This document shows, piece by piece, positions 30,914-58,517 of a DNA stretch of 64,000 nucleotides; the stretch's first letter is position 1, and each line of letters begins with the position of its first letter. The notes beneath the pieces were generated by a model. It was not told the origin of the DNA and made no database searches. It saw only the letters and a list, made by a program, of their open reading frames with translations. Origin of the DNA: Sugiyamaella lignohabitans. Taxonomy: Eukaryota; Ascomycota; Dipodascomycetes; Dipodascales; Trichomonascaceae. The stretch covers positions 1-64,000 of the forward strand of contig NC_031673.1 in NCBI RefSeq assembly GCF_001640025.1, given 5' to 3'. The position numbers were made by a program, and so were the translations under genes.

Positions 30914-31041
30914 CCAGCCGAGGTTACTGCACGCGGCAAAATGGAGCTCTCTGCTGAGCTCAAACTCCACTGTCTCACTACACCGTATTTCTGACCGACT
31001 GTCTTGTAACTTAATTTATTGCTTCTTCTAACCGGGGACAT

Positions 31042-31176
31042 GCCTCCGGCGGCTGGGGCTGCGCCCCAGACCCCGTGGCTCCTCTCGCTACGCTCGAGTC
31101 GGCTTCCAGGACCCTCACGTAATCTCGCGAAGGGAGTACAACGGGGTCTGGGGCGTAGCCCCACTCGCCGGAGGCA
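31042..31176. repeat. GC element pair E1 (first copy of the family)
   Basis: First member of a family of GC-rich double-hairpin elements. A monomer reads TGCCTCCGGCGG, then hairpin A (CTGGGGC-NNN-GCCCCAG), a linker ACCCCGTGG or ACCCTGGTTG, and hairpin B with a TTC loop (several stem versions). This pair is inverted with the CCTCC ends outward; the loops of A are TGC and TAC. It lies 128 bp after the CTO1-like stop codon. Confidence 0.9.
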
Positions 31177-31414
31177 GTCCGTCCAGGGTCCAGATTGCTT
31201 GCTGTTGGTGAGGCTGCATGGATTGGCAGGAGCTTAATTAGGAGCTGCATATGATCTTATCAGCAATCATGAACTTTCACTCGGACATGGTCATCAGCTA
31301 CGATAGAAGTTATTAGTAGTAGATTGAGTTTCTAGTATGGAGAAGATCATATTTGGCAGTAGAACCGGAAGTTCATTTCAACGGTACATGTGCAAGTGAA
31401 GTATCGCATAAAGA

Positions 31415-33749
31415 ATGCCGCAAAATAAGCGTCGCATCCATGGCAATACGCAGGAGGACCGTGACAGGTTCTTTTCGTCGCAGGACGCGTTGGACCTAAT
31501 CATGTCGCCGGAAAATGAGCAGACTGCTAATACCGCAGAGAGGAGTGCCTCATATGACAGGTCACAGAAGGAGAAGCTACGGTCGTTTGGGCCTGCAGTT
31601 CGCTTCTCTCCTCCCGCGACCAGTCCGCCACGAAAAGTTCGGAGGACCAAACATTCCACACCTTCGCTCTCTGATTCAACCTCTAAAGTCGACAATTCAG
31701 ATTCAGATCACAAGGAATCACAGTCATCAATTGCAATTGATTCTGAATCGAAGGTTAGAGAACCGATAAGTTCCTCACGTTCCTCAGCAAGACAGGTCTC
31801 AGAAGAGCTTGGATCATCTCCACCACCGCAAACAATTGAGAAAACTCAAACTAAACTGGATATGAGTGTCAAACCTCAGTCCTTCAAAAAGAAGCTGTTC
31901 GAAAACTTGAAGTTCTGTAAGTTGCTGCTGTCTCCTTTTGATACTATGCATATGCTAGTATGGAAACACATGTTTTATATGGTATACTAACTCAAGTCAA
32001 TCAGGTATGGTCCCTAGTAGACCATCGTCCAAGCTCTATCAGATTAAATCCAAGAAATATGACGAATACGGCGCCAGGGTCACGTCCAGTTTTGATAAGT
32101 CTGTATCACATGTGTTGATTGATCCTGAGTGGGATGGATCGCGTACTTTGAAATATTTACATATTTCAGCTGGGGACATAAGACCAGAGATAGACAAAGG
32201 TACTATTCACTTTGTTCGTGATAGTTGGCCGTCTGCATGTATTGAAAACAAGCAATTGATTCCTGAAAGTCCTGATTATACTGTTCAATTGTACTCACCT
32301 GCCCCATCTCCAGAAACCACTCCGGAACCAGAGGTCTCACAAAAGCTAGTTCAAACTGTTATCAGTCCTGAGAAACCTCCTAAGCTTAAGAAGCGTGATA
32401 TTTCGACATCTTCGAACACTTCACTTTCCCCTGAACCAGATACCCCGAAGCAGACTGCAATTGACGATCTTAATCCTGTAGAAGCTAGTGGAGCCAATAC
32501 CAGTATTGAAAACAAGGCTGAAAAGAAGGCTCAGGATGGCTCTGGTAACGATGAACTGGACTCGGTTATTCAGGAAGCAGAACTTCAAGAGCACGCGGCG
32601 AGATTTCTCTCGGATGATGAGATTGAGCATGCGCTGCAGACTCAAAGGAAGAAGTACTCAGCGCCATACTCGCGTCCCAAGAGGACCAGTGACGGAAGAG
32701 TGTTAAAAGGTAACTGGGACACATTTCTGTGCATGAAAGCTGGAGAAGACAACATTGCTAAACCTGATGGACCAAATGCCTTGGTTATCAACATTTTGAG
32801 CTTGATGCTTCACCATTATGAAGCAGAGGGCGATCAATGGCGCACTTTGGCATATCGAAAAGCAATAGCGACTTTGAAAAAGCAGACAGTTCCAGTGAGA
32901 ACGGCTGCGCAGGCAGTTAAACTTCCTGGTATAGGCAGTCGATTGGCTGACAAGATTGAGGAAATTAACAAGACCGGTGACTTAAAACGACTCAAGTATA
33001 CTCAGGGAGAGGGCAAATTCGAAGTTTTGGAGCTGTTAAAGCGTATTTATGGCGTTGGCAATAAGACCGCTAATAAATGGTACAGTGAGGGAATTAGAAC
33101 TTTGGATGACGTAAGAGAACGTAAAGATTTGACTGCCAACCAACAGACTTCTCTGGACCATTATGAGGACTTTGCTGAACGAATTCCTCGAGATAATGTG
33201 ACAAAACACTTCGAACGAGTGAGAGATGCAGTCCATGAAATAGATCCAGAGATCGAGGCAACTGCTATGGGATCATATCGTCGTCTACAGCCGGATTGTG
33301 GTGACATTGATATTATCCTAACCAAACGAAACGCCAGTAGACACGACCTGACGGTAACATTGGCCAAGTTGCTGGATGTGTTGTTTGAACAAGGGTTTGC
33401 CAAGTATACATTTGGCGGGATCGAGGCAAATAGTATGCGATGGCTGGGGGCATCAGCCCACCCAGATGACGGCAATAAATGGCGTCGAATGGACATTTTG
33501 CTTGTACCATGGGAAGAACGAGGTGCAGCATTTATTTATTATACAGGAAACGATATATTTAATCGTAGCATGAGGTTATTAGCACAGAAAAAGGGATACC
33601 GGCTTAACGAAAAAGGACTATTTCTGGCACCTCATGACAGAAAGAGTGCTGGTGCAGTGGGACCACTTGTATGTGGAGAGGACGAGGAAAAAATATTTGA
33701 GACTTTGGGAGTCCCTAACCGGCCACCACATAAACGGATTATTGGTTGA
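31415..33749 (+). CDS. POL4: Family X DNA polymerase with BRCT domain
   Basis: Exons 31415-31916 and 32005-33749 give 748 residues. The intron (31917-32004) has GTAAGT, branch TACTAAC and acceptor CAG, and joins FENLKFC to MVPSRPSSKLYQI inside the BRCT domain (about residues 160-255). A Ser/Thr/Pro-rich linker follows, then the polymerase: helix-hairpin-helix LPGIGSRLADKIEEI, a second HhH GVGNKTANKWY, catalytic GDIDIIL near residue 599 and the third Asp in MDILLVPWEE near 662, then YYTGNDIFNRSMR. Pol4 fills gaps during non-homologous end joining and base excision repair. It is longer than S. cerevisiae Pol4 (582) because of the N-terminal and linker regions. Confidence 0.95.
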
Positions 33750-34587
33750 TGACAGATAATACCAGGTAGTTTGATTAGATGTAATTGTATGGTAATAGTA
33801 TTTAACAAAGGCAAGCTAATAACTGACTGATCTAACAAGCTGCGAGAAAATTCTACCCGCGCTTCTCTTGTTGATGTTGGGAAATTGCCCATTTGGATGT
33901 TATATTGAATGTCTTGACGATAATATATCCAGAAGCCCCCATAAGACAGTCATGACGTGACGCTATACCAGGGAATTTAGCTGCGTATTCCAGAGTGAGA
34001 CATCATTTTGAGTTGGATGACCATTGCTTTCATCGCTGTTTCACATTTCAATATTAAGCAACTAATATAAGCCCGATACTGCTACCGAAGTGCATAAAGA
34101 AACTTGGCTCTCAGCAGGAATCTTAGCCTCAAGTTAAGCTTTGGCCCAGAATACTCCAATGGGCTTACAAAGATAGTGAGTTACATGGATAAGAATCTTA
34201 GCACCGAGTTAGGTTTGTTTCTATATGTGCCAAGAGATCTATGTTTCGTTCTGATACAGGCTCGCACGATGAATACAATAGTAAACAGATCTTCAAGGAC
34301 GGATCCAAAGGTCCAGGTCTACTGATCAGCAACAATTACATATCCATGAAATTACCTAACGGACCGAGGGGAGTGTAGAATACGGACGGACACATCTGTC
34401 AACCTGACCACGACAAAATGGATATATAAATGGACCAATTCCAGGATGTATTTTGTTCTTAGTTCTATCTTCAGCTTATAGATTCTCTTCTTATTAGCAC
34501 AAGAACAAAGCCAGCTCCAATCAGAAGCCTCTGAAACCAGACCAACCAACCCGAACAACCAAGCCCAAGAAACAGACTAAAAAAAAA
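33750..34587. other. Intergenic: POL4 to secreted Ala/Pro protein
   Basis: No gene recognised. A TATA box (TATATAAA, 34423-34430) lies 158 nt before the next ATG. CA/AC-rich leader sequence precedes the ATG, as in highly expressed yeast genes. Confidence 0.5.
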
Positions 34588-35592
34588 ATGATTTCCAAGA
34601 GCATTGTCACTTACGCTACTGTACTTTTGGCAGCTTATTCACAAGCCGCTCCTCTTGCTGGAACCGCTGCTTCTGCTCCTGGTGCTGCTGTTTTCCAACC
34701 CTCGCAGTCGGCTCCTGCTGCTCCTGCTGCTGCTCAATCAGCTCCTGCTCCAGTTGCTGCTAATACCGCTGCTGCTGCTGCTCCTCCAGCTGTGTCTGCT
34801 CCTGCCGGAGCCCCAGTCCCTGCTGCTCAGCCATCTGCCGCAGCTGCTCAACCCAGTGGTTCAAGTTCTCCTACTGACCCTTCAGTCATCAACGCCCTCA
34901 AGTCGGCCAGTCCTTCCGACCTTAATGCCCTTGCCGCTATCTTGAGCGCTGGAATTTCTGGAATCATTGGCCTCGCCAAGCAATCTGGCCAAGACCAGAC
35001 TCAGACCCTGAAGAACTATGTTTCTTCTGTTGGCAGCAGCATCAGCGCTATCCAACAAGCTCAAGGAGCCTCTGCCGTTCCATCTCAACTTACCAGTTCT
35101 TACCAACAATTGGAGAATTATGTCGCCAGCTACAAGCCTCCTACTGCTTATGTCAAGCGTCAAGCTGGTTCTCCTACCGACGAGTACGACGGAAATCCCA
35201 GTATGTTGCCCACTGACCAAACCGGTCTCATGGGTCAATCCGAGGGAGCTGCCATGCTTGCTCCTTTAGCCAACAACATCAACGGTCTCTTGCAAGGCGA
35301 CAGTGCTGCTGGAGACGTTTACAAGATCATTGACAGTCTTGACCACGCCAACGACGCCAACGTGGCTGCTGTGGGCTCGGCTCTTTCTCCCGTCACTGGC
35401 GGTATGTCCGAAGACGTTGCCAACTTCTTGGGTGGTCCCGTCGTCCAGACTCTTGCTCACGGTACCTGGGACACCATTGCCCACATTATCGGCACTCCAA
35501 TAGACACTCTGACCGGCACCTCTGAGTCTGCTCCTGCCTCTGACTCGTCCACCTCGTCCGACTCCTCTGGCAGCAGCTCGGGCTCCAACTAA
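34588..35592 (+). CDS. Secreted Ala/Pro-rich protein, unknown function
   Basis: 334 residues with a signal peptide (MISKSIVTYATVLLAAYSQA). An Ala/Pro/Ser low-complexity region (about 20-105) precedes a mostly helical middle (about 110-190). A Kex2-type Lys-Arg lies at YVKRQAG near residue 191. The second domain (about 205-315) has no recognised motif, and the tail is Ser/Asp-rich. No GPI signal is seen. Strong codon bias toward GCT, TCT and CTC/CTT and a TATA box with an A-rich leader suggest high expression. I do not recognise the family. It could be a secreted or wall-associated protein cut into two parts by Kex2. Confidence 0.75.
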   Translation: MISKSIVTYATVLLAAYSQAAPLAGTAASAPGAAVFQPSQSAPAAPAAAQSAPAPVAANTAAAAAPPAVSAPAGAPVPAAQPSAAAAQPSGSSSPTDPSVINALKSASPSDLNALAAILSAGISGIIGLAKQSGQDQTQTLKNYVSSVGSSISAIQQAQGASAVPSQLTSSYQQLENYVASYKPPTAYVKRQAGSPTDEYDGNPSMLPTDQTGLMGQSEGAAMLAPLANNINGLLQGDSAAGDVYKIIDSLDHANDANVAAVGSALSPVTGGMSEDVANFLGGPVVQTLAHGTWDTIAHIIGTPIDTLTGTSESAPASDSSTSSDSSGSSSGSN

Positions 35593-35701
35593 ACCTCGCA
35601 CCCCGTTCCAGCACACACTTTTTTTTCTTCCCACGGCACCTTTCGCTTGCCGCAATTCAGTCTCTTAAAATAAATCCAAATCTACTTTTCTCCTCACGCC
35701 A

Positions 35702-35836
35702 GACTCGAGCGTAGCGAGAGGAGCCACGGGGTCTGGGGCGGAGCCCCAGCCGCCAGAGGCAACATCTCCCCGGGCCCACACTGCCTCCGGCGGCTGGGGC
35801 TCCGCCCCAGACCCCGTGGCTCCTGCTTCGCAGGAG
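35702..35836. repeat. GC element pair E2, outward orientation
   Basis: Reverse monomer 35702-35760, then forward monomer 35782-35836. The CCTCC ends face each other in the middle, the opposite of E1. Loops are TCC and TCC. Hairpin B is of the CTCGAG type on the left and CCTGC-TTC-GCAGG on the right. It lies 110 bp after a stop codon. Confidence 0.9.
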
Positions 35837-36259
35837 TTGCGTTGGGGGACTGGACCCTGCATGATTCGAACTGTATCAACTGGATCTGGTTCAGAGTGTA
35901 ATGCAAGCAAGTGAGTTGGGGGCCTGGTTTGACCATAGTTTTTAGGGGCATGAAACTGACTGGAGGGTCGAAACAGGAAAGTATTTTTTTACCATAGGGA
36001 TGAGTGTGAAATTTCAGATCCCCCTCGCAGATGATAATGCACTGATCGGCCGGGGTCTGCATATCGAACCCCCCCTGAGCCACATTGATTCGGAGAAAAA
36101 CAGTTCCGAAAAAACTCAATTCTGCCAATCGCTCCACAGCCCATTCATTGCTTTCACTGCTCAACCGCATGTGCCCTGTGACCAAACCATAACAGACCTG
36201 AGCCACTTTTTCCACTTTCTGGTATCACATGCAACGGGGCTCGGTGGGTCGCCCGACTT
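35837..36259. other. Gene-free stretch
   Basis: No element or gene was recognised here; the frames that read through it are extensions of the GC elements. Confidence 0.5.
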
Positions 36260-36434
36260 GCCTCCGGCGGCTGGGGCTGCGCCTCAGACCCTCTGGCTCC
36301 TCTCGCTGCCCTCGAGTCGATGTGTGTGAAGGCCATCAGAATAAAAAACCGCCCAAAATACCATCCCGACACCCCCCAAAAGCTCGCGAAGCGAGCACAA
36401 CGGGGTCTGGGGCAGCGCCCCAGCCGCTGGAGGC
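36260..36434. repeat. GC element pair E3, inverted
   Basis: Forward monomer 36260-36319 with loop TGC and a somewhat decayed hairpin A (GCCTCAG). Reverse monomer 36381-36434 with loop GCT and hairpin B GCTCGC-GAA-GCGAGC. Confidence 0.85.
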
Positions 36435-37365
36435 GGGCCCGATACCGGCCGAGCCCCCAGCTAGGCCGCGCGGCCCCCAGACGCCTTGGGACACCAGCCT
36501 GGATCTCAGGGTTGGGTGATTCTAATCGGGTCGGCAGCGCAACGCCCCGCAAGATTAGCATATTAGCATGGCTGGAGCTGGCGTTCGGCTGGAAAGATGC
36601 TTGGGTGCCTGCGTGCCGTGTTCATGCCTGTAGACGCTGACGCTCATATTAGGTAGACAGACTCCACTTCATCACCATCATCGCAATCACACGCCTTGCT
36701 AATTACTTGAGCAGCATTTTCCGCGACTTCTGATTTTCGTCTCTTGTACTTGAACTTGCACCTGCACTTGAATTTTTTTTTCAACTTGCAATTGCTGTAT
36801 AACATCCAATAAAACCTTTGCAATTTGCATTTGTTGTTTTCCATTGTTTGTATTTACCTCTCTATCTACATACAGCTGACGATACTGCATTCTTTCGGTT
36901 CAAATATCCCATCTACTGATAACCGGGCTGAGCAAGTCAAAAAAAAAGTATCTGAACACGAATTTTTTCTTGTCAGCATTCTTTTCTGTTTTTATCCAGC
37001 AAGTCTACTATCGATTGAAAAATTGAGCTGCAATTTCATTGCCTGATTTCCCGATACATTCTAACTGGCAATCAACTGGCGAAGTACGTTAGTCGTGGCG
37101 CAGGTATACGTGTGTGTTGTTGATGTCGTGATTCTGAGTTACACTTGCAATTACATTTACATTTTTGCACTTCATTTTTGAATCGCGAGTACTTATCAAC
37201 CGGGTCACACTGTACACTTATCAAGTGCACTTTGAAAACTAACCTTCCCATCAGACCTAAACCGATCCGTGTATTATTTAAGTCGGACTCAGTCAATCCA
37301 ATTCCGATCAATTCGATTCCTCCATTCAATTCAATTCAGCTGAGACTTTATTCACAACAGCTACA
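36435..37365. other. Intergenic: upstream of SCS2
   Basis: Starts GC-rich next to E3 and becomes AT-rich toward SCS2. Short low-complexity C/T/A runs lie near 36740-36800. No gene was recognised. Confidence 0.5.
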
Positions 37366-38799
37366 ATGGATATTTCACCCGAAGTTCTTGTTTTTCATGG
37401 TACGTATTAGCTGTGCAGCGCGGCCGAGATGCGATTGCATGTTCTCGGTTCAGACTTCGAACCCCGATCACTGGGGATTTCCAGCTTGTTGCCACTGTTT
37501 ATTGTTTAAAGAGTAGGGCTTCAAGCTGAAATCTAGCTCTGATAGCGCTCCTGTCACTCTTCTGTCGTCTTCAACACTTCCCAGTGACTGGTGAATGTGG
37601 CAGTGTCAGTGTTGTAGTGCAATGTTGGCAGTCATCGAGCTTGTCGTTATCTCAGATTGTGTCATTCGTGACATCTCGGTCCCAGAAGCTCGCGAAGCGA
37701 GCACAACGGGGTCTGGGGCAGCGCCCCAGCCGCCGGAGGCAAGATCCCTCCACCATACTAACCCTGAACAGCCCCCTTTTCCGAGCAGGCTACCAAGCCA
37801 TTGGTGTTGAAAAACACATCGGATCGCAAACTGGCTTATAAGATCAAGACCACGGCCCCGAAACTGTACTGTGTGCGACCCAATGCGTCGGTTATTGAGG
37901 CCGGTCAGACGATTGAGGTGTCGATTATCCGTCAAGCCAAGGACCAGCCCAAGCCTACTGAAAAGTCCAAGGACAAGTTTCTTGTTCTGACAGCACCTGT
38001 TTCGGACGAGATTCTCGAGAATTCCGACATTTCAAAGCTGTGGGCTACTTTAGAGGAGACCAGCAAGGACACCATTGTTAACAAGAAAATCAAGGTCAAC
38101 TACGAGTTCGGTACCGACTCTACAGGTTCTTCAGGATCGCACCATGGTGAAACCGGTGCTGCAACCAGTGGATCCGTTGGATCAGGCTCGTTGTCATCTG
38201 CTGCTACTGGCACTTCGGAGTCTGGTGATAGCAGCAGATCGTCTGGTTTGCCCGTCAACTCACATGCTTCTGCTTTGGCTGCTGCCACATCGCAAAGTGA
38301 GGGTGCCGGTAACACCAGCATCATCGACCCCTCGCAATACGGTACTCCACTTCGAGGAGGTCACAGCGATAATGCCGGTGCCGGATCTGTTCTAGGAGGT
38401 GGTTCTTCTGGTGACGGTGCTGGATCGAGTCCTGTGAATGCTACTGCTGCTGGTATTGTTGCTGCTGCTGCTGGCGGAGCTGCCACTGGCTCGTCATTGT
38501 CTAATGGTTCCAGTGGTGAATCGACTCTCAAGTCGCGAAACATCCCTAGTTCTGCCGATACAGACCGAGCCTCTCAACGAGCCCAGGAACAAATCTCGTC
38601 TCAATCCAAGGAATTGAAGGCTGCTGCTGCTGCTAACAGCTCGTCATCCACCAGCGGATCTGCCAATGAGCCTGGATTCAAGTCGTCACAACCCGGCTCG
38701 TCCACCGCTGTCCGCCAGCAACCATCTTCGGGCGTCCCCCTCCACCTGGTCCTCGCTCTCGCCCTCGTTGCCTTTTTCATCGGCTGGAAGCTATTCTAG
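37366..38799 (+). CDS. SCS2: VAP-family ER contact-site protein
   Basis: Exons 37366-37399 and 37772-38799 give 353 residues. The 372-nt intron has donor GTACGT, branch TACTAAC and acceptor CAG, and contains GC element E4. Splicing gives MDISPEVLVFHAPFSEQA, and the MSP domain continues with VLKNTSDRKLAYKIKTTAPK and YCVRPNASVIEAGQ, which binds FFAT motifs. A long Ser/Gly/Ala linker (about 130-325) ends in a C-terminal tail anchor (about 332-352, LHLVLALALVAFFIGWKLF). VAPs tether ER to plasma membrane and recruit lipid-transfer proteins and Opi1. The open frame alone begins with TTG, so exon 1 is required. Confidence 0.95.
37687..37740 (-). repeat. GC element E4, inside the SCS2 intron
   Basis: A single reverse monomer with loop GCT and hairpin B GCTCGC-GAA-GCGAGC. 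It ends 31 bp before the intron acceptor and leaves the TACTAAC branch box intact. Confidence 0.9.
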
Positions 38800-38915
38800 A
38801 TGCAAAACCCCCTACCTCAAAACCATCATCCGGATCCTCCCTAGCACCTTCCACAGCGTGTCTCCTTAATACTTTTTATTTGTTATTGTTTTAACCTTAC
38901 ACTACCGGGGTGTTT

Positions 38916-39070
38916 GCCTCCGGCGGCTGGGGCTCCGCCCCAGACCCCGCTGCTCCTCTCGCTTCGCTCGAGTCGTTTTCTTGGGGGTCCCCTGAACTCT
39001 GGAAAAACCAGATCAACTCCTGCGAAGCAGGAGCTACGGGGTCTGGGGCAGCGCCCCAGCCGCCGGAGGC
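38916..39070. repeat. GC element pair E5 between convergent genes
   Basis: Inverted pair in the 307-bp gap between the SCS2 and MAP2 stop codons. Loops are TCC and GCT. Hairpin B is CTCGAG type on the left and CCTGC-TTC-GCAGG on the right. The long inverted repeat could act as a shared terminator. Confidence 0.9.
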
Positions 39071-39106
39071 AGCAACCCCCCCTAGTCGATAAAGATACAC
39101 GTATAT

Positions 39107-40477
<1,371 letters not shown>

Positions 40478-40927: not shown

Positions 40928-41404
40928 ATGACCAAAGCAACTCAAACCCTCAGCATTCTCTTATCACTTGTGGGTACTTACGTCCTCCTTCTCAATGGCA
41001 CCATCCCCGTCAGCACCAAGATCCACGACGAGGTCCTGCCCCTGGTCCCTTTCTGGTTCCTCTTCGCCTTTGGATCCTACGCTCTGGGTACCCTTGGCTG
41101 GGACGTCATGACTTTCAACGACAAGCCAGAAAAGCATAAGGAGCTGCTCCAGGTAAGTCAACGATAGGGGGTACATGCCTCCGGCGGCTGGGGCTCCGCC
41201 CCAGACCCTGGTTGCTCCTCTCGCTCCGCTCGAGTCGTTCTCTCGGCTGTCCAGTAACTCCTGCGAAGCACGAGCAACCAGGGTCTGGGGCGGAGCCCCA
41301 GCCGCCGGAGGCATTGCCAACTCAGGACCCATGTACTAACGATAATCCAGCAAATTGAAGCGGCCAAGGCTGACCTCCGCTTGAAGGGTGTCGATGTCGA
41401 CTAA
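40928..41404 (+). CDS. DPM3: Dolichol-phosphate mannosyltransferase subunit 3
   Basis: Exons 40928-41152 and 41351-41404 give 92 residues. The 198-nt intron has GTAAGT, branch TACTAAC and acceptor CAG, and about two thirds of it is the GC element pair E6. Two membrane helices (about 8-27 and 40-60, LVPFWFLFAFGSYALGTLGW) precede a cytosolic tail with the block EKHKELLQQIEAAKADLRLKGVDVD, the conserved C-terminal coiled coil of DPM3. It anchors the catalytic subunit Dpm1 to the ER membrane. S. cerevisiae lacks DPM3, another sign of a non-Saccharomycetaceae yeast. Confidence 0.95.
41177..41312. repeat. GC element pair E6, inside the DPM3 intron
   Basis: Inverted pair, loops TCC and TCC. It starts 24 bp after the donor and ends 38 bp before the acceptor. 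Flanks extend the symmetry (AT-GCCTCC and GGAGGC-AT). Hairpin B in the right arm has one substitution (CTGCGAAGCACG). Confidence 0.92.
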
Positions 41405-41484
41405 ATTATACATTATTAATTTATATAATAAAACTCATAGCTATTACAGATAACATAAAACAAATAATTGGCGACATATGCTGG

Positions 41485-43940: not shown

Positions 43941-44065
43941 CTCTTCAAACCTCCGCCCGTACACACAGACCGTTATCTTATCTCGCCAGATAAGCTACCC
44001 CCTTAGCCCTGCAGCGGACATGGATCTCCGACAAAACCCGGGATAACACCCCATCCCCCACGCCC

Positions 44066-44184
44066 TAGCGAAGCGAGCCACGGGGTCTGGGGCGGAGCCC
44101 CAGCCGCCGGAGGCAGCGAGTCAACCCCCCTTTTGCCTCCGGCGGCTGGGGCTCCGCCCCAGACCCCGTGGCTCGCTTCGCTCG
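44066..44184. repeat. GC element pair E7, outward orientation
   Basis: Reverse monomer 44066-44114 and forward monomer 44135-44184, with the CCTCC ends facing each other over about 20 bp. Both loops are TCC. Hairpin B is shortened to a GCGAAGCGAGC / GCTCGCTTCGCTC form in both. Confidence 0.9.
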
Positions 44185-44454
44185 GCAGCGGGCCCGAGTC
44201 ACAGCGCGTGAATCAGGTGACGTGGGGCTGGAGCTGGCTCGTGGGTGGCATGTGGGCTTACGAGGCAGTGAAAAATCGAAAGGTGATCCGAGGGGTGCTA
44301 TCAGGTTCCGTGATTTTTTTTTTAGATTGTGGAGAGTGATTTCCTTGTTTTATTGACAGTCTTTTAGGAGAGACGAGGAGTTTTTGCGAAGAACCGAAAA
44401 GCAGATTGAGAGAATTGGTTTCTTAGTCGAATACATACCCGTGTACCTATCCAG

Positions 44455-46720: not shown

Positions 46721-46780
46721 CGACTCGAGCGCAGCGAGAGGAGCCACGGGGTCTGGAGCGAAGCCCCAGCTGCCGGAGGC
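46721..46780 (-). repeat. GC element E8, single
   Basis: Reverse monomer. Hairpin A reads CTGGAGC-GAA-GCCCCAG on the plus strand, with one mismatch, so its loop (TTC in element sense) equals that of hairpin B. Confidence 0.85.
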
Positions 46781-48198
46781 ATACCCACCGGTAACACTGG
46801 AGGAATAAGTCGGCCAAACCTGTAATGGTGTTGGTAGATAATTTGGTACTATTTCTTGTGGTGTCGTAAACATAAAGTTGGAGAGTCGTTTAGAGGTGGA
46901 AGTGTTTGTTCTTGTCAATTGTACGGATACTAGATTGTCAGAGATAGATTGGTCGGTGTATAGTGTTCAGATATTTTATTTGTGATAAAGTTGTCATTTA
47001 CGGTTTCGATAGACTGGCTCTCCCTCTAGTTTCAATGCAAGTATCCATACGTCTCAGGACGTTAAATTGATCTGGAATATGTGCAGCTGTCTGCAAGATA
47101 AGGTTGGTTCCTTGCATATCATGTACGAAGAGATCGACTACTGCAACAGTCTTGAGCTACTGGTATTGAGATCGTGAATGGCAACGATATAAATCATGCG
47201 TGCTTAGTTGCTGAGTGGGCTGAGTTCAAGATTATGGGGTCTTCGCGGTTAAACTAGCAACGATTGATGAGTGAGATTTTTATTTCAGTGGAAAAAATTT
47301 CCAGATCTCGTATTTAGACTGTACATCCATTGCTTCTTGAAAAATTATTTAATCCATTAGTAAAGGCATCTTTCCCGCTTTTCTCTCGTTTTGTAATGTC
47401 CAGTCTTCGTCGATGATGTTCATATCATATGCCAGTGAACCGAGGTTACCTGGACTCAAGTAATACAAAATCCAGATTAATATCTTGCCAATTGCCCAAT
47501 TGCTGTGTCCGCTAATGTCAGTCAGTTCAACGGCTCGATGCACACAATGAAAATGCTTTGGTTTTGAAATAAGTGTTTCCTTTTTAGAATTAGATAATAA
47601 CCGTTGAGCCGTTGAGTTTGCATGGGCTTATGCGCACGACAGGAGATAGCTGGCTTGCATTGGTCAACCTCCTGCCAACATCCACAAATATATTAGAACG
47701 AAATTGGCTGGAAAAATTCGTTGAAAATTTCTATCTGAATCTTTCGTTACAAGGGTGAGATCTAAGGCAAGGTCAGGAATAATCGAAGAGAAAGATTAGG
47801 AAACCTCGCACGGCTGTGCCGTTATATTGTTCCCGTCTTGGAAGAATAATTAGTAAGATATCCTAGGATTTCTCTGAATATTTGCTCTTAGCCGAATCTT
47901 ACATGGTAGACATTCTCTAATTAGAGCACTGGCTTAGAGTATCCTTAGAATTTTTAAATTTGCTGCTGTAAAGCTAGTATTCGAAATCTGTCATACCCTG
48001 GTCTATAAGCGGTAGGTTTTGAGACACTGTAGAATAAAGGCCCCGTTCGACACTTGCTTTAGAGAAGAATTATAGAACTTAGCTGTGACCGACCAGCTAG
48101 TGATCTAATAAATTCAGTTCTCCTCACGGATTTTTATCCCAAAATAGGCAAATCGGTTGTTTTGATGAAATAGGACTTGTGCGAAAACCGTGTCGATT
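46781..48198. other. Gene-poor stretch upstream of the cyclin gene
   Basis: About 1.4 kb. A protein-like minus-strand frame near 47349-47640 has no ATG (see rejected items). Nothing else was recognised. Confidence 0.45.
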
Positions 48199-49290: not shown

Positions 49291-49409
49291 GCTCTGTAAT
49301 TATACTATATTTATTAATGCATCTTGACTGTACATATCTCACAATCTACTAAACCTGTGACCAACACTCTTCTATACGGCGACAACTGCTCACCAATTGA
49401 CTGGGTTCT

Positions 49410-49469
49410 GCCTCCGGCAGCTGGGGCAAAGCCCCAGACCCCACTGCTCCTCTCGCTTCGCTCGAGTCG
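49410..49469 (+). repeat. GC element E9, single, after the cyclin gene
   Basis: Forward monomer 119 bp after the stop codon. Loop of hairpin A is AAA, and CCGGCAGC replaces CCGGCGGC. Hairpin B is CTCGAG type. Confidence 0.88.
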
Positions 49470-50473
49470 TTACGTCTACGGGGTTGGTCGACATTTTACT
49501 CGTCAGGTCGTGAAATAGGATTATGGCATGCCAAGCCGAGTAGATTCGAGGAGCAGCTGAGTAAACGTCCTCCAGCGAATGATGTTTTTAATATAAAATA
49601 TACTCGCTACAGCAAATCCAATTAGTAACAGTTTCTGAAATTTATACTTGTAGAAAATTTCATGTTACACAATCGGTGTCAAAAGGTGTTCTATCATGCT
49701 GGCAATGTGTGTACTATCTATGAAGCATAAGAGGTAGTCAACTATAAGGTACGCAATTATCAGAACGGATAGCTTTTTAGAGCAGCTTGGAACTTATACT
49801 ACCCACTATGACAGTATTAATAATTACTTAGAATAGAATATACTCTTCGAAGCGTAGCTGGACTTGTATAGCAAGTACGAATCGACAGGGTTCAACATCA
49901 TGCATGCATATTCTGATCTAGATTCAGTTTTAAAAAACAAATTACAAAACAAATTGAAGGCCAAAACAACAGAATAATTGAAAATTGAAAGGATCCTCTT
50001 TGCTCTCTCTTTGCTCTTATGAAATTTGAGCGTACTTAATTTAGAACCGAATAAAACGTGAAAGGGTTAGCAACCCACAGACATCAGACATTGCTCCATC
50101 GAAATAGGCAATGTTAAGTTCAGTATTAGTACACTGTCGTAATAGCAGAATAAATAAATAAATAGAGAACATATACTTTTTGAAAGAATACTTTTAATGA
50201 GTCTTAGATGGATGGTGTTCATACTGAGGGAGGTCTGTGTGATATGCTTATAAAGGTGAGACGATTATTTACTTATATGCTTCTCCACAATACCGCTTTT
50301 TGATGTTCTTCCAGCTTTGTGATGTTTAGTAGTGAAAGGACTATAATAGTCTTAGAGTAGCGAGACTAAAAAGTTCAATACATGCCGCATAATTGAGTAG
50401 GTTAAGACTGAATATTGGAGTTTATTAAAAGTGTACTTCGAATAGCACGACTAACTCTTAAACTTAGCTTGAA
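49470..50473. other. Gene-free stretch
   Basis: About 1 kb of AT-rich DNA upstream of RAD9. No gene or repeat recognised. Confidence 0.5.
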
Positions 50474-53400: not shown

Positions 53401-53815
53401 TCTAGACCAGGCTTATTGTAGCTATAACGTGCGGCATTTCCATCAGAACTGGCTTGAAGGAGCCACTCTGGCCGACCAGTTTATCAACCGACGACTGATT
53501 CTCGGTCGCAACTCGATCCTTGCCGACCGCATCTACCTCCACAACCCAGACTCTAAAGACACAGCCATCCTATTCCTACTCGTAGCCATGGCACCACAAG
53601 ACAAACTGGAGCTCGTAAACTCGCGAGCAGAAGTTCCGAGTGGATCAGTTCTCATTGACATGGGTCGCAAGCCGTCAACGACATCACAAGCTTCGACCTC
53701 CCGCCCTCAACTGACCCAACTGCGATCTGGCACATCAACCACCAACCACCCTAAAACCATCATCTATAACCGCGAATGGATCATCCAGTGTCTAATCAAC
53801 CAGCGCATCGTCTAA
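50474..53815 (+). CDS. RAD9: DNA-damage checkpoint adaptor, RAD9/Crb2 type
   Basis: 1113 residues. The long disordered N-terminal half carries many SQ/TQ sites for Mec1/Tel1-type kinases (for example ATQLID, SSQGV, STQND, EDSQL, DSQE, ISQ-type repeats). A Tudor-like domain near residues 650-730 (VWGVWGTKTWYAVKL, then VRFGNGDVTDL and IQVGDKVKLD) would read methylated histone H3. The C-terminal tandem BRCT region (about 859-1110) starts GILSDCVFTISAID and ends with EWIIQCLINQRIV. The Tudor-plus-BRCT order defines the Rad9/Crb2/53BP1 group, which binds damaged chromatin and activates Rad53. Assigned to the family by domain order; S/TQ content supports it. Confidence 0.88.
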   Translation: MSISGGSWFTDDLEIERDHDDKTQPVGGRGDIDQQTQIVNNQIPNVLLGPFPSFGIGETKPRDSDSTHSNLSNSSKSSARTQKDEPIDLPSGETDVVSDPDPVAVQPGPESNVTQKLSSMGPSSDEPVGSPSPIALKEGIDGVSRYRRYSGPVSPIRGEAANAIARFNSSPGGFESDHEETMNDRDIGGNFVATGLGASQATQLIDTANYESSPLFKGHKSSQGVVLNFEELASSPLKVRNASVTSTQNDVNVVNNGVGNGIGNFGAIGEGSKQSNASSAEDDSIHIHTAFFAAEDSQLQKRRKAINKLKNQEDTAIQIDDEDVVHLNIDKAKSTRDSQDKPGTVKADKPDILSLDVDPSPSHISDSIQGSQGASSATQIITGVKYSQITRNTATANSQFQETQRVRLPNAIPNALLISRDQWMSTVDDSDNNDSQERGFTHPASLNTQGSGRNSQPVITQVLGTPRQEMRDREREKSFKAASSSSKEEDIDMEEAITSDHEEKNVDKEDEEEEKGPEEIITSSPEKYDDETPVRRGRGRSKRKIEVETPVVSRFKKPRTGNAELQPMLGEMHTDIQGGVSASNDRMAQNDSTPDGDNEAEWESEQQKDTDVQSDAVYTNESDQIVTSKRTYAKHIVPSPTTGSTEKSVENVVWGVWGTKTWYAVKLVDTTANGLFEQGGANTGTLSVRFGNGDVTDLTTDKIRRFDIQVGDKVKLDNDRRPNFEVVELLQRPPVDGSVDETVVTTTTSPDGAWVGYEGVCFVKVQHTKTNKQTTVPIRLLYMSGTQISSYLSRRQLHKNAFQDGSNTLAASLRQQSKALERLTLTNNTSQSSNQFNQFTAIDSGGAKTQPTDHGVAQRGILSDCVFTISAIDNTKELEALTKTIIRNGGVVLNGGLQELFSVDYSTLEIKYNHTRNNFTFGGVLAKFAVRTPKYLEGLALGWPCLSFKFIIDSIAEGEMIQDWEPYLLSAGVSSALDQAYCSYNVRHFHQNWLEGATLADQFINRRLILGRNSILADRIYLHNPDSKDTAILFLLVAMAPQDKLELVNSRAEVPSGSVLIDMGRKPSTTSQASTSRPQLTQLRSGTSTTNHPKTIIYNREWIIQCLINQRIV

Positions 53816-53869
53816 CAACCATAATTTATTTATTTATTTATTCTATCATCACCAACAAGGGGGGCATCT

Positions 53870-54008
53870 GCCTCCGGCGGCTGGGGCGCTGCCCCAGACC
53901 CCGAAGCTCCTGCTTCGCAGGAGACCGCGAGCTCCGTCCGTCGACGCTCGACTCGAGCGCAGCGAGAGGAGCAGCGGGGTCTGGGGCGCAGCCCCAGCCG
54001 CCGGAGGC
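53870..54008. repeat. GC element pair E10, after RAD9
   Basis: Inverted pair starting 55 bp after the RAD9 stop. Loops are GCT and TGC. Hairpin B is CCTGC-TTC-GCAGG on the left and CTCGAG type on the right. Confidence 0.92.
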
Positions 54009-54335
54009 ACGACCCCCGACCCAGAAACAGGTGTACAAAAAAAATTACATGTCGGACTCCTCTGACACCCATCGATCACGCCCACCGGAAAATCCGATGA
54101 TCCCAACGAGTTCTTAAAAAGCCCAGTCCTTCTTGGCTATCCTGAATCACTGTTTTATATTGGGAGCAGGGTCAAAACGACCCCAAAATATATAAGAACA
54201 GTTTGTCTAAAAGGATGCCTGAATAATGTTGAAGCACGAAAAATTATCTCCTTCGCACCCTTTATATAGCCTTCAATGCACGGCTGAAAATAATATTTTT
54301 TCAGGGGGGACGCCGGTTGGGGACCAGGGTGCTCT
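54009..54335. other. Gene-free stretch
   Basis: No gene recognised between elements E10 and E11. Confidence 0.4.
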
Positions 54336-54395
54336 GCCTCCGGCGGCTGGGGCTCCGCCCCAGACCCCGTGGCTCCTCTCGCTTCGCTCGAGTCG
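54336..54395 (+). repeat. GC element E11, single
   Basis: Canonical forward monomer, loop TCC, hairpin B CTCGAG type. A good reference copy for the family. Confidence 0.92.
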
Positions 54396-54534
54396 GGCGT
54401 TGGGGAGTAGTGGGTTTGGGAATTGCGGGGAGTGCGGAGTGGTCCGCGAGGGGTGACAAAAATCACAGGACTGATTTCAACAGACGAAGTCATTGAGTCC
54501 AACAGCTCAAGGGGGGACTTGGGGGACGGGGACT

Positions 54535-54671
54535 GCCTCCGGCGGCTGGGGCTCCGCCCCAGACCCTGGTTGCTCCTGCTTCGCAGGAGATTGCGAGGAC
54601 CGTCGACGCCCCGACTCGAGCGTAGCGAGAGGAGCCGCGGGGTCTGGGGCGCAGCCCCAGCCGCCGGAGGC
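54535..54671. repeat. GC element pair E12, inverted
   Basis: Loops TCC and TGC. The left linker is ACCCTGGTTG, the right one is the ACCCCGCGG type. Hairpin B is CCTGC-TTC-GCAGG left and CTCGAG type right. Confidence 0.92.
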
Positions 54672-54752
54672 ACACGCCCTAGGAAAATGACACCCGTTTT
54701 TCGAAAGTCGTGAACCACCTACCCCAAAACAGCCAACGACCACCCTCCGTCC

Positions 54753-54812
54753 CGACTCGAGCGAAGCGAGAGGAGCCGCGGGGTCTGGGGCGGAGCCCCA
54801 GCCGCCGGAGGC
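54753..54812 (-). repeat. GC element E13, single
   Basis: Reverse monomer, loop TCC, hairpin B CTCGAG type; flank GGAGGC-ATGATGC. Confidence 0.9.
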
Positions 54813-55209
54813 ATGATGCCCTCGCCCGGCCACAAGTGATAATTACTTTTGGCCGGTTTGACAGAGAATCGGCGGCGGCGAGCGAGACGGAGATCCTGCA
54901 AGACGCAGCCTTATTTGTCTAGGCAAACTAGCAAGCCGGGGTGCAGGTGCAGACGGCCGGCGAGCTAACCTTGTTCGGGCAGGCGCAAAGCGCACTGGAA
55001 TGGACTGACAGACCTACTAGCACCACCGATCGGCCAACGACCGTTGATCCTAGGTCACAAGCCCACAATAATGACTTCACCGACCGGCCCAAACAGGAAA
55101 ATATCCTCTCTCCTGTACGCTCGCAGGGTTAGGCCGCTACGCTAGCTAAGATCTGTGCCATGGACGTTTAACTCCACGAACTCCAGGCCCCAGGGGGGTG
55201 ACTGGTTGC
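54813..55209. other. GC-rich gene-free stretch
   Basis: Clearly more GC-rich than the rest of the window even outside the elements, and without a protein-like frame of its own. Confidence 0.4.
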
Positions 55210-55347
55210 GCCTCCGGCGGCTGGGGCTCCGCCCCAGACCCTGGTTGTGCTCCGCTTCGCGGAGCGGGCGGGGGTTCCCAAATGAAACGACTCGAGCGAA
55301 GCGAGAGGAGCCACGGGGTCTGGGGCAGGGCCCCAGCCGCCGGAGGC
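55210..55347. repeat. GC element pair E14, inverted
   Basis: Loops TCC and CCT. Left hairpin B is GCTCCGC-TTC-GCGGAGC (perfect 7-bp stem), right is CTCGAG type. Confidence 0.92.
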
Positions 55348-55641
55348 AGGCCCCCACACCGGACTCCGGACACAGTTCGATCTGTCTCACCGGGCCTTGG
55401 CACCGTCTCAGGGGCCCAAGGCCCGTCTCGCTTGGGTTGAAGGCAGTCGAGGTTGCGGCGGTCAGGGGTGTAAAGGACCCAATCAGTGCACCCCAGATGC
55501 CGGTGTTGGGCTGGGGATGCGCCAGAAGCAGGGGAAAGCCTGCCTGTTCCGACCGATCAGGAAGGCAATGACGCCGGGGTCGAAGAAAGCCAAGACGGCA
55601 CCGCCAGAGCCCGCTGCACAAGCCACTGGGGACTGGGTCGT
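55348..55641. other. GC-rich gene-free stretch
   Basis: Open frames exist on several strands, as expected in GC-rich DNA, but none resembles a protein. Confidence 0.4.
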
Positions 55642-55779
55642 GCCTCCGGCGGCTGGGGCTCCGCCCCAGACCCTGGGTGTGCTCCGCTTCGCGGAGCGGC
55701 TTGGGGGACCCCAGTGAAACGACTCGAGCGAAGCGAGAGGAGCCACGGGGTCTGGGGCAGAGCCCCAGCCGCCGGAGGC
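55642..55779. repeat. GC element pair E15, inverted
   Basis: Same design as E14: left hairpin B GCTCCGC-TTC-GCGGAGC, right CTCGAG type. Loops TCC and TCT. The spacer between monomers also matches E14 in its last bases (GAAACGACTCGAG), so E14 and E15 are recent duplicates as units. Confidence 0.92.
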
Positions 55780-56211
55780 ACACTCCCCACCCGTGTACCG
55801 AGGTCGGTGGGGACGAGCCGACTGCCGATTGGTAAGGGAGACCAGTCGGAGGGCGACAGCGAGCGGTTTCGGTGGGTCTGAGACAGCAGGACCGGTGTGT
55901 TTGGCGTGGATGCGTTGCATCACGAACTGGCTGGGACGCACCTGGCCAGCAGATACTGCCGGTGCCGCGACGCAATGTGGGGGAGGAGGGGGCAGGACTA
56001 GCAAACGCTAGCCAACAAGTGACAGGCCCCCGAGGGAGACCACTCGATTTCAACATTCAGGCCGCCGACGTGGCTATTGTCTGAAAAAAAAAGAGATCGG
56101 TCGCTCGGCATACCCTGACATGCATAAGCGTATCCTAAAAAAATAGGATATGCCACCGGTGCAGATGTTACAGATCTGATCAGATACAAAATTTAATTTC
56201 CAGCGGCCACC
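55780..56211. other. GC-rich gene-free stretch
   Basis: Continues the GC-rich segment, ending abruptly in AT-rich DNA at about 56080. No gene recognised. Confidence 0.4.
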
Positions 56212-56262
56212 GCTCGCGAAGCGAGCACAACCCGGTCTGGGCGGAGCCCAGCCGCCGGAGGC
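56212..56262 (-). repeat. GC element E16, shortened single copy
   Basis: Hairpin A here is CTGGGC-GGA-GCCCAG (plus strand): each arm has lost one base, keeping a perfect stem. Hairpin B is GCTCGC-GAA-GCGAGC. Confidence 0.9.
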
Positions 56263-56593
56263 ATGCCCACTCCCTCCTCTCCCCTCCTCCATCACCTCAA
56301 CCCACTCATTTCGCCGTCAAAACCACCACACATCAAAACCAACGACCCCTGAGCTGCTACCCCCCCAAAAAACAGCGGCCCTAACCCCGGTCATTTTATT
56401 CAATTCATTTGGGCCGATCGGCAGTTTTGCTTCTTGACGTGCAGTGGCTATCCCGGAGATCCCGGTTAGGGCAAACTGCCCAAAACCGCAGCCACCCAAC
56501 TCTCACACAAATTAGACTCGATGCAGAAGCACACAGCAGCGACGTGACCTCTGGGCCGCCTGGAGGTCACTGGGGGGAGAGGGTCTGCTGGGT
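56263..56593. other. Gene-free stretch
   Basis: No gene recognised between elements E16 and E17. Confidence 0.4.
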
Positions 56594-56653
56594 CTGCCCC
56601 CGGCGGCTGGGGCTCTGCCTCCGACCCGGTGGTTGGTTGCTTCGCAAGCAATT
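56594..56653 (+). repeat. GC element E17, degenerate single copy
   Basis: TGCCCCCGGCGGCTGGGGC is recognisable, but the right arm of hairpin A is changed (GCCTCCG). Hairpin B is TTGC-TTC-GCAA with flanking pairs. This is the most decayed copy. Confidence 0.7.
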
Positions 56654-56746
56654 GCTAGGGGGGGGGGGGAGAACGGAGGTTTTCGAGCTGGGGTGGTGGT
56701 CCAATGACAGCTGACACAGACCTTGTTTGACCAGCGACCCGAAGTC

Positions 56747-56800
56747 GCTCGCGAAGCGAGCACAACCAGGGTCTGGGGCGGAGCCCCAGCCGCCGGAGGC
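56747..56800 (-). repeat. GC element E18, single
   Basis: Loop TCC, linker CAACCAGGGT (plus strand), hairpin B GCTCGC-GAA-GCGAGC. Confidence 0.92.
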
Positions 56801-56846
56801 AGGTCACACACCCCTCAGTCCCAGTCCCGGTCCAGTTCCCCCCACC

Positions 56847-56900
56847 GCTCGCGAAGCGAGCACAGCCAGGGTCTGGGGCGGAGCCCCAGCCGCCGGAGGC
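56847..56900 (-). repeat. GC element E19, single
   Basis: Nearly identical to E18 (one difference, CAGCCAGGGT in the linker) and 46 bp from it in the same orientation, so a local duplication is likely. Confidence 0.92.
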
Positions 56901-58233
56901 ACGAGGGCCAACTCCCCCAGCCAAGACTCCCAGCCCCAGGCCACGGCCAAGCCCCCCAAGCCCCAAGCCCCAAGCCACATCAGGAGGAGCAGGGCGGTGG
57001 TGAGTTGGGTGAGTTGGGTGTATGGTACCCTTACATCGCACATGCCTCGCAGAAAGAAGTGCTGCACCTGTCGACAGCTGGTACAGGCTAGTACAGGCCG
57101 GAGGTACAGGCAAGGTAGTACAGGGAGCAGGGAGCTACAGCCTGTTAAAAATAAAGTTATACTTTTCTCGTGTGGTCCAAAACCCCAATCCTATAACTAA
57201 CTCATCTTCCCCAGAATTCACTTTAACGAGAAGTAAGAACAACAGAACGCTTGACTGCACCTACGCCGCCAGCCTGCCCCGGTGCTTGTATTATTAACCA
57301 CATTCCATATACGCCAAAGTTTGTTCGACACCAGCCAAACAAGCGGAAAAAAATATTAATTTAATTAATTAAATCTTTTTCCCGCTGGCTATCACGGGTC
57401 GGTATTTGCACAAACCCGTTACTGATTTGCAGGGAAATAGGTCTGGAGAAACCAGTACTGAGGGAACAAAACGTAAAAGACGCACGATCCGTTGCTACCT
57501 AAACTCGACCCTCCAGTCGTTGAATTAACAACATACTTTTTTACAGGTTCCAGTGCTGTCAAGAGGATCTCGTTGGGTTTTTTTATAATACCTTTTTGGC
57601 GACATTTTTTGAATACCTTTTTTGGATAGCTTTTGGAGATTCATTGGTGACCAAAGCGCCCGTTGAAGACCATTTTTGGCGGTTCACAGGATACCTTTTG
57701 AGATTCATTGGTTAGTCATTGAATATTCAGTGTTTAATCTGAGAATATTGGTTATTCATAGGTTAATCTGTTGATATTCATTGGCTGTTTGGTAACTCTG
57801 AGATTGGGTCTGGTATTTCGGGTGACTGACCATCAGATTGACCTAGCCAATACCAGTTCACCGCACTTTTTTGGCACCACTGACCAGTTCCTCGCAGCTG
57901 TTGTCTGTGGATTGCTTTTTGAGATACTTTTCTTTTGATTTTGTTCTGGCGTTGTATCAGACTGACTAACATCTCTGATATCCAAGTGGAACAAACCAGC
58001 CAGATCCACTCGCTGGCCACTAACTGGCTACAGAGCCGATAATCGATCGAATCGTGCGACAGTCTAGTTCTACAGGTTTTTGTAGGGTACAGGGATTTTT
58101 GTTTGCGAATCTCAAACCGTGTACTCGAACGAACTGCCTAGACCATTAACAGTCGCCCGTTGTCCACCGTCATCCCGGACCGCACCGGAAGAATCACCAC
58201 GATCACGACACCATTGCCACTGGCGACTGATTT
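56901..58233. other. Intergenic and 5' leader of the zinc-finger gene
   Basis: No gene recognised. From about 57560 to 57790 the DNA carries loose repeats of GGATACCTTTT and GATTCATTGGT type. The exon before the intron at 58234 has no ATG from about 58080 on and is taken as 5' untranslated leader. Confidence 0.45.
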
Positions 58234-58257
58234 GTAAGTACGCGCTGGAGGGGGCAT

Positions 58258-58394
58258 GCCTCCGGCGGCTGGGGCTGCGCCCCAGACCCCACTGCTCCTC
58301 TCGCTGCGCTCGAGTCGTTACGTCTCGGGCCCCCAGCAGCTCCGCGAAGCGGAGCACAACCAGGGTCTGGGGCGGAGCCCCAGCCGCCGGAGGC
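58258..58394. repeat. GC element pair E20, in the 5'-UTR intron
   Basis: Inverted pair, loops TGC and TCC. Left hairpin B is CTCGAG type; right is GCTCCGC-GAA-GCGGAGC type. It begins 24 bp after the donor, the same distance as E6 in DPM3. Confidence 0.92.
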
Positions 58395-58423
58395 AGAACC
58401 CACCTCCCCCACAAATTTCACCC

Positions 58424-58475
58424 GCTCGCGAAGCGAGCACCCGGGGTCTGGGGCAGCGCCCCAGCTGCCGGAGGC
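58424..58475 (-). repeat. GC element E21, in the same intron
   Basis: Single reverse monomer, loop GCT, hairpin B GCTCGC-GAA-GCGAGC; CCAGCTGCCGG replaces CCAGCCGCCGG. It ends 35 bp before the acceptor. Confidence 0.9.
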
Positions 58476-58517
58476 ACGCTTGACACCAGTACTAACAGCA
58501 GCAACTACAGGTTTCTT

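Follow-up and report, generated by a model that had tools for sequence, protein, structure and literature searches.

What kind of DNA is the family of GC-rich repeats with two successive hairpins that lies among the genes near one end of a chromosomal contig of the yeast Sugiyamaella lignohabitans? The stretch analysed (the window) comprises the first 64,000 nucleotides of NC_031673.1, the start of a 2.28-Mb contig in an assembly of 15.93 Mb and four contigs, and an earlier note, made from the letters alone, had pointed out 32 copies of the repeat between 31 and 58.5 kb. Our results indicate that the repeat is, on balance, probably a very abundant short non-autonomous mobile element of the nucleus, whose propagating form is an inverted doublet, mostly of 137-141 bp, and which works like a bacterial REPIN; we infer its mobility from one genome.

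The end motif of the element, TGCCTCCGGCGG, occurs exactly 5,858 times genome-wide (15.9 Mb; 2,942 and 2,916 times on the two strands), about once per 2.7 kb, whereas its reversed control gave 0 and 2 exact matches. In the window, 36 sites match it with up to two mismatches (2.16 expected; 0 of 100 shuffles reached 36), and the 19-mer TGCCTCCGGCGGCTGGGGC is found 32 times with up to four mismatches. A covariance model of the arms (R1) returned 32 matches of 32.6-62.9 bits between 31041 and 58476, the number of copies given in the earlier note; the window supplied 16 of the 60 arms behind the model, so this agreement is partly by construction. The other 28 matches listed for the window, none above 19 bits, come from the same palindromes read on the opposite strand. 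As the note had stated, the copies lie among nuclear genes; they are sited in nuclear contigs and some stand in introns. The absence of copies from the first 31 kb, also claimed there, holds in the window but is local, as twenty other 10-kb stretches of the genome, which together with the window form our sample (264 kb), contain 0-23 units each. The sample contains 224 motifs with up to two mismatches, 204 of which run directly into a hairpin, one of these (18473) being a chance match. In an Rfam scan of the window, tRNAs alone were above the cut-off; matches on the elements at low threshold were to microRNA models, which long GC-rich hairpins would be expected to resemble.

A full element consists of an L arm (TGCCTCCGGCGG, hairpin A, ACCCn and the conserved block CTCCTCTCGCTnCGCTCGAGTCG) facing an R arm (the same core with a covarying hairpin B around GCTTCGC), and the centre between the arms is variable, being GACGGTCCCAGC-like in part of the copies. 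Among the 32 window copies, 20 form 10 converging pairs, which are whole elements with terminal inverted repeats. The features of the window are as follows.

31041..31176, plus strand: 136-bp doublet (full element) with the L arm leading and an altered hairpin B in the second arm
35702..35761, minus strand: single L arm (60 bases shown)
35782..35841, plus strand: single R arm; it and the L arm at 35761 diverge
36259..36435, plus strand: doublet, 177 bp
37682..37741, minus strand: single R arm
38915..39071, plus strand: doublet, 157 bp
41153..41350, plus strand: candidate intron (GTAAGT...TACTAAC...CAG), 198 bp, 138 bp of which is the doublet 41176-41313
41176..41313, plus strand: doublet, 138 bp, within the candidate intron 41153-41350
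44056..44115, minus strand: single R-like arm with very short hairpin B
44134..44193, plus strand: single R-like arm, likewise with a very short hairpin B; it and the arm at 44115 diverge
46722..46781, minus strand: single L arm
49409..49468, plus strand: single L arm, loop AAA
53869..54009, minus strand: doublet, 141 bp; z-score -10.24 folded as single-stranded DNA
54335..54394, plus strand: single L arm
54534..54672, minus strand: doublet, 139 bp
54754..54813, minus strand: single L arm
55209..55348, minus strand: doublet, 140 bp
55641..55780, minus strand: doublet, 140 bp; z-score -9.64 folded as DNA
56204..56263, minus strand: single R arm, 6-bp stem CTGGGC/GCCCAG (E16)
56595..56801, minus strand: R-R pair, 207 bp, one arm degenerate
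56842..56901, minus strand: single R arm
58234..58501, plus strand: candidate intron, 268 bp, upstream of a C2H2 zinc-finger open reading frame (ORF; 58577-62152), with one doublet and one single arm inside
58257..58395, plus strand: doublet, 139 bp; z-score -9.25 folded as DNA
58417..58476, minus strand: single R arm

Hairpin A combines a nearly constant stem with a variable loop. Its stem is CTGGGGC/GCCCCAG in 176 of the 204 sampled units and the shorter CCGGGC/GCCCGG in 6, and its loop is TCC in 135, TCT in 20, GCT in 16 and TGC in 11, others being rarer. All eight loops reported earlier (TCC, TGC, TAC, GCT, CCT, TCT, TTC and AAA) were recovered in the window, as was the copy E16, at 56263 on the minus strand, in which each arm of the stem is one base shorter. 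By the sequence after ACCCn, 105 units are L-type (CTCCTCTCGCTnCGCTCGAGTCG; motif CTCTCGCTnCGCTCGAG), 93 are R-type (hairpin around GCTTCGC) and 6 are neither. The claim that hairpin B occurs as at least four mostly self-complementary stems holds strongly for the R arms (93/204) only, the L arms making up 105/204. The R-type stems vary yet are mostly complementary (CTCCT/AGGAG, TGCTC/GAGCG, GCTCC/GGAGC, GCAC/GTGC, GTTCCC/GGGAAT), with a stem of only 2-3 bp in 5 to 10 of the 93 arms, and an L arm folded alone (one tested) formed a 4-bp stem. A strong, covarying hairpin B is confined to the R arm.

Covariation was quantified in 88 distinct R arms, in which 78 paired cells carry double changes, against 23.1 +/- 3.4 in shuffles that ignore kinship (0 of 500 as high). 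The covariation score of 0.195 dropped to at most 0.111 when the partners were slid, and displaced structures pair far worse. These data bear out the earlier suggestion of constraint on a folded nucleic acid. The excess was also seen in a smaller set of 57 of the 88 arms, from which the commonest type was mainly left out (74 double-change cells versus 29.9 +/- 4.7). The number of pairs with a double change was not clearly raised (6 versus 4.3 in shuffles; 36 of 500), nor was that of further pair types (11 versus 11.4; 414 of 500), and the double changes come from a limited set of stem types, which leaves few effective events. Selection of the R arms by the word GCTTCGC fixes the two innermost pairs of hairpin B, which therefore cannot vary in this set. 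RNAalifold proposed an additional small stem, GCC-TCC-GGC, within the end motif, in which 0 pairs were changed on both sides.

Irregular copies were also observed on contig 1. At L018 207-382, three short-stem R arms (CCGGGC/GCCCGG) stand in tandem at distances of 87-88 bp. Every arm has a G-rich leader, which looks as though leader and arm had been duplicated together in tandem. At 376054 and 706530, copies have part of hairpin A and ACCCCG duplicated internally, which resembles replication slippage.

Several lines of evidence identify the inverted doublet as the unit. Exact inverted pairs number 1,153 genome-wide, against 22 direct pairs at equal spacing, an over-representation like that of REPINs. 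Likewise, among neighbours 120-215 bp apart in the sample, 57 converge, 4 are direct and 2 diverge; 11 direct neighbours at 60-120 bp are tandem copies. The sample contains 59 converging pairs within 230 bp, 48 of them typed L-R, as well as 91 single arms; among the pairs typed LL, at least three (those in L024) are actually R-L, the CTCTTGCTTCGCAAGAG arm being matched by the loose L motif as well. Length peaks at 137-141 bp (29 of 47 parsed L-R doublets) although the centre varies: it is GCTGGGACCG-like from the R side in 25 of the 40 doublets with the commonest R arm and unlike this in the remainder. The arm core equals the consensus in 92 of 111 doublet arms and 55 of 84 single arms, and over these 195 units the core differences are 0.35 in doublets versus 1.37 in singles (p 0.0014). 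Moreover, the two arms agree in post-hairpin type (ACCCC, ACCCT or ACCCG) in 32 of 47 doublets (22.1 +/- 3.1 expected; 7 of 5,000 permutations), and all three whole doublets tested folded strongly as single-stranded DNA (z -9.3 to -10.2).

This architecture is that of REPINs, for which passages of PMC3116915 argue that the inverted doublet is the replicating entity, with a variable spacer and with singles as remnants. We take the yeast doublet to be the replicating entity for the same reasons, namely its inverted arms, self-folding strand and variable spacer, and singles that would be remnants. Further resemblances to REPINs and REPs, as far as portions of PMC3116915 and PMC3733652 describe them, are short palindromic arms, mostly extragenic sites and, with all 195 units (p 0.0014) though not significantly without the short-stem variants (p 0.089), singles tending to be more diverged. 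In contrast, the yeast element resides in a eukaryotic nucleus, has two unlike arms and forms at least 1,153 doublets, where part of PMC3116915 gives 430-560 REPINs for one Pseudomonas genome. GTAG beside the hairpin was not found in the alignment of 60 distinct yeast arm cores, whose arms begin with TGCCTCCGGCGG; CGTC, the other REP tag, is present in the centre of some yeast doublets. The Y1 transposase family (IS200-type, RAYT; PF01797) gave 0 matches in the yeast genome, the control being positive in 6 of 14 genomes, and a section of PMC3733652 reports CGTC-type REPs without a dedicated transposase. By layout, the known repeats nearest to the element are REPINs, followed by unnamed bacterial repeats and then by mitochondrial GC clusters. 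No literature match was found for its exact strings, and titles and abstract starts on repeats and transposable elements of Sugiyamaella and Trichomonascaceae held no recognised description, although an earlier mention in the species' genome paper is possible.

The unnamed bacterial repeats came from a related pattern applied to bacterial and archaeal species genomes, which gave at least 120 loci; the pattern requires a 4-base loop, so it picks bacterial variants and cannot match the yeast copies. Among the matches listed, carriers by record title include Acetobacteraceae, Roseococcus, Polymorphobacter, Desulfovibrio, Desulfobacteraceae, Myxococcota and others; in the available main text of a 2025 REP survey (PMC12306157), Desulfovibrio, Roseococcus, Acetobacteraceae and Myxococc- are not mentioned. 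The bacterial layout is a CCTCCGGCGG leader (GCCTCCGGCGG), a hairpin and ACCCC. Among the matches listed, the 11-mer GCCTCCGGCGG occurs 242 times, a perfect stem of at least 5 bp is next to it in 207 and ACCCC follows directly in 171 of these 207, while the hairpin stems vary by lineage. Pairs within 250 bp among the 195 units of the matches listed, duplicates excluded, are converging in 58 cases, diverging in 1 and direct in 1, and 57 of the 58 converging pairs measure 75-138 bp end to end. Bacterial flanks are frequently A-rich followed by GGG, or near apparent stop codons (judged by eye, without gene prediction). Thus, these repeats share with the yeast element the same core in the same order, inverted doublets and patchy occurrence, and differ from it in their lineage-specific hairpin stem and flanks.

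As the bacterial loci had been chosen by pattern, a separate search of bacterial genomes was made with R1, which was built from yeast cores alone (60 of 65 distinct arm cores, 35 positions; the chance match 18473 and four degenerate or odd cores were left out). The search covered 20 bacterial genomes, 8 preselected for a pattern match and 12 relatives of one carrier (G002); E-values are rough by the tool's own warning. Seven of the 8 preselected genomes gave 26 to at least 150 matches and the eighth (G007, actinobacterium-titled) gave 1. A Desulfovibrio metagenome-assembled genome (MAG) gave 76, the best of which spans positions 1-35 and reaches 58 bits, compared with 62.9 for a perfect yeast copy. 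Among the 12 relatives, controls matched to G002 alone, 11 had none and one (G073) had 1 match. The occurrence is patchy: the exact-stem pattern matched 1 of 150 genomes in G002's family, G002 itself. In the phylum of the Desulfovibrio genome, 4 of 79 genomes had matches, and in only 2 of these was the repeat present in multiple copies (30 and 29 matches, with a double count at one place). With a looser pattern, 21 of the 128 viral-contig matches listed have the hairpin, three of which (L171, L190, L274) are one unrelated common sequence; five converging pairs lie on predicted viral contigs among the matches listed (L216, L259, L279, L280, L284), and the exact yeast core was not found on viral contigs. 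A Y1 transposase was present in 1 of 6 repeat-carrying bacterial genomes, most Y1-free carriers being MAGs and possibly incomplete, and 2 of its 19 loci contain a repeat copy; Y1 was accordingly rejected as the bacterial mobiliser.

Variants of the bacterial layout were noted. In L050, L081, L118 and L136, records that also have the ACCCC type, a second subfamily reads CCTCCGGCGG-hairpin-AAAGC or AACGC. In the Desulfovibrio records L092 and L102, one CCTCCGGCGG leader is followed by 2-3 hairpins, each with ACCC, a plan near that of the yeast R arm.

The close match between the core and hairpin repeats of various unrelated bacteria suggests a kind of mobile DNA hitherto undescribed in the cell nucleus. 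Shared descent is favoured by the number of positions fixed outside the stem and by a doublet plan common to both sides, whereas a short, GC-rich core found in many distant phyla with differing stems points to convergence, and a common mobile ancestry would be possible but unlikely. A wider proposal, tentative and rather unlikely, unites the yeast element with the patchy bacterial CCTCCGGCGG-hairpin-ACCCC doublets, of which predicted viral contigs carry some, in one enzyme-poor mobile family that would have crossed between bacteria and the eukaryotic nucleus, its folded strand copied by host replication and repair with the 35-base core as the replicative signal.

For the yeast element, a mechanism of spread can be proposed. 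One strand would extrude as a long hairpin during replication, and the extruded strand would be copied or cut out and then joined beside G-tracts, either by a trans-acting enzyme or by host replication and repair through template switching. Single arms would be partial copies, or halves remaining after breakage of a doublet. Host replication and repair copying at G-tracts is our favoured guess for the copying step. A G-tract lies about 4-7 bases outside both ends of the 59 full elements, reading inward (G in 27 to 43 of 59 at each position), and GGG lies downstream of the L-conserved block in 27 of 44 L singles (offset 4-8) and 22 of 52 doublet L arms (offset 5-9). Singles have some direct-repeat similarity at both ends when the repeat abuts the arm (by repeat length, R arms, 0 to 378 and L arms, 13 to 325 of 2,000 permutations), which is not clear when the repeat may stand at any position (96 to 587 of 2,000). 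A palindromic target was considered and rejected: a G-tract tends to lie left and a C-tract right of full elements, but the two flanks of an element show little complementarity of their own (z 2.1 over 14 bases at register 0). A permutation test gave 0 to 16 of 2,000 with the register fixed and 13 to 125 when it could shift.

Several results weigh against a REPIN-like mobile doublet. No mobilising gene was found in the yeast, in a search limited to the Y1 family. When short-stem variants are set aside, the greater divergence of singles has a p of 0.089; hairpin A loops do not match between the arms of a doublet (27 of 47 versus 25.2 expected); and two single arms folded as single-stranded DNA gave modest z-scores of -2.82 and -1.66. 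The G-tract of the L singles themselves and the direct-repeat similarity around singles indicate that breakage of doublets alone does not account for the singles. A comparison of duplicated stretches within the sample showed no empty sites in 60 of 281 rows. In addition, local hopping was rejected because near copies are at most slightly more alike than far ones. Centres from one stretch resemble each other no more than those from different stretches do (1,818 of 5,000 permutations), two close pairs (L021, L024) having near-identical centres, and hairpin B type is no more alike among near copies (710 to 1,408 of 5,000). Slight local likeness was seen in two features: at distances of up to 5 and up to 10 kb, respectively, loop type gave 32 and 562 of 5,000 permutations, and post-hairpin type 88 and 23.

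The rival reading that survives best, which we hold to be unlikely though by no means negligible, is a passive repeat that slippage during replication and template switching at G-tracts would spread without any dedicated enzyme. It fits the G-tracts outside full elements and downstream of L singles, the similarity around singles and the 11 tandem neighbours, but alone it fails to explain near-identical arms amid varying centres and flanks, or the recurrent length of 137-141 bp.

Distinctly unlikely is an ordinary miniature inverted-repeat transposable element (MITE), that is, a shortened, internally deleted relic of a cut-and-paste DNA transposon with terminal inverted repeats, which would depend for its movement on a DDE transposase encoded elsewhere in the genome. 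MITEs are small, abundant and bounded by terminal inverted repeats, and the terminal repeats, the size of about 140 bp, the high copy number and the intron and intergenic sites of the element fit such an origin. However, direct target duplications are not in excess among the 59 full elements over the lengths 2-15: perfect flank repeats number 4 at length 2, 3 at length 4 and 0 at all others. The arms themselves also contain hairpins, the R arm consisting of two with covarying stems, and singles outnumber pairs in the sample (91 versus 59).

Could the repeat instead be a cis-acting functional element, such as an RNA 3'-end, terminator or boundary signal, retained by selection at its site and not mobile? 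A crude ORF map puts 121 of the 204 units in intergenic positions and 36 within ORFs (110 codons or more), many of these being short GC-rich ORFs across the repeat itself; 47 are unplaced, one side having no ORF. Units are densest between convergent ORFs (28 in 12.8 kb), fewer between co-directional ones (61 in 42.1 kb) and sparsest in divergent spaces (32 in 31.7 kb), which favours such a role, as does the position of some bacterial copies, by eye, closely after stop codons or beside A/T-runs. Nevertheless, the repeat stands in both orientations, in introns, singly and paired, at 0-23 units per 10 kb and with its exact motif about every 2.7 kb genome-wide, which makes this role quite improbable. 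Strict candidate introns, of which the sample has 25, identified by splice motifs alone, contain 8 of 150 sampled elements. Without their doublet, four one-doublet candidates would measure 60, 80, 68 and 53 bp, near shorter candidates, which speaks for the mobile doublet, and the one at 41153-41350 is flanked on both sides by open, coding-like sequence. An introner (intron-making) reading was rejected, because only these 8 of 150 elements lie in candidate introns and the splice motifs lie outside the element.

The earlier note had also likened the repeat to organellar elements. Fungal mitochondrial double-hairpin elements have two hairpins in a row and resemble the element by this description alone, differing in being organellar. 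With mitochondrial GC clusters the likeness is one of layout but does not extend to their shared 5' block or direct repeats: the Saccharomyces clusters have GC-rich hairpins, variable loops and merging units, and GC38 of S. cerevisiae reversed reads TCCGG, hairpin, ACCCCG, but they are organellar, with AG/ACT direct repeats and other stem and 3' sequences (according to parts of PMC4478555). The shared 5' block ACTCCTTCGGGGT (CTCCTTCGGGGT) gave 0 exact matches in the window and one 1-mismatch match outside the elements, and the 59 full elements have no counterpart of the AG/ACT repeats, with no direct-repeat excess at 2-15. As two features of REPINs and two of GC clusters were not found in the element, we file it under neither. 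COX1 was not found in the assembly, so the species' mitochondrial DNA is not in it. That GC clusters moved to the nucleus and multiplied there is very improbable: the order TCCGG-hairpin-ACCCCG and loops more variable than stems are common to both (portions of PMC4478555), but their 5' block is missing from the window's elements and the nuclear core matches bacterial repeats across all 35 model positions.

Other features of the window were observed beside the repeats. A gene resembling DNA polymerase lambda/POL4 (31415-33749; Pol beta palm, thumb and fingers), with an apparent intron ending near 32005, adjoins the first doublet. Between repeat copies, 54047-54184 on the minus strand matches the small nucleolar RNA snR3 below threshold (32.4 bits; cut-off 40). 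A coding tandem array at 23338-24206, with a 66-bp unit in two blocks of about 7.6 and 5.6 copies, lies in a 332-aa ORF that has no Pfam match at E 1e-4. The first kilobase is a terminal block without the repeat, 27-1037 being 88-90% identical over most of its length to 29-1117 of L015 on contig 1.

Beyond the earlier note, the analysis adds the genome-wide abundance of the element, the inverted doublet with differing arms as its unit and a closer match to bacterial repeats. Hairpin repeats are known in bacterial chromosomes (REPs and REPINs) and in mitochondria (GC clusters), and how they spread is unsettled, chiefly for those without a transposase. A culturable yeast with thousands of nuclear copies offers an experimental system for watching such repeats move. 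Moreover, the detection of the core in bacteria by a model made from yeast alone presents a testable choice between shared mobile ancestry and a hairpin code that is copied wherever it arises. If such a code is indeed copied by the replication machinery, a self-spreading DNA shape that needs no gene of its own would exist.

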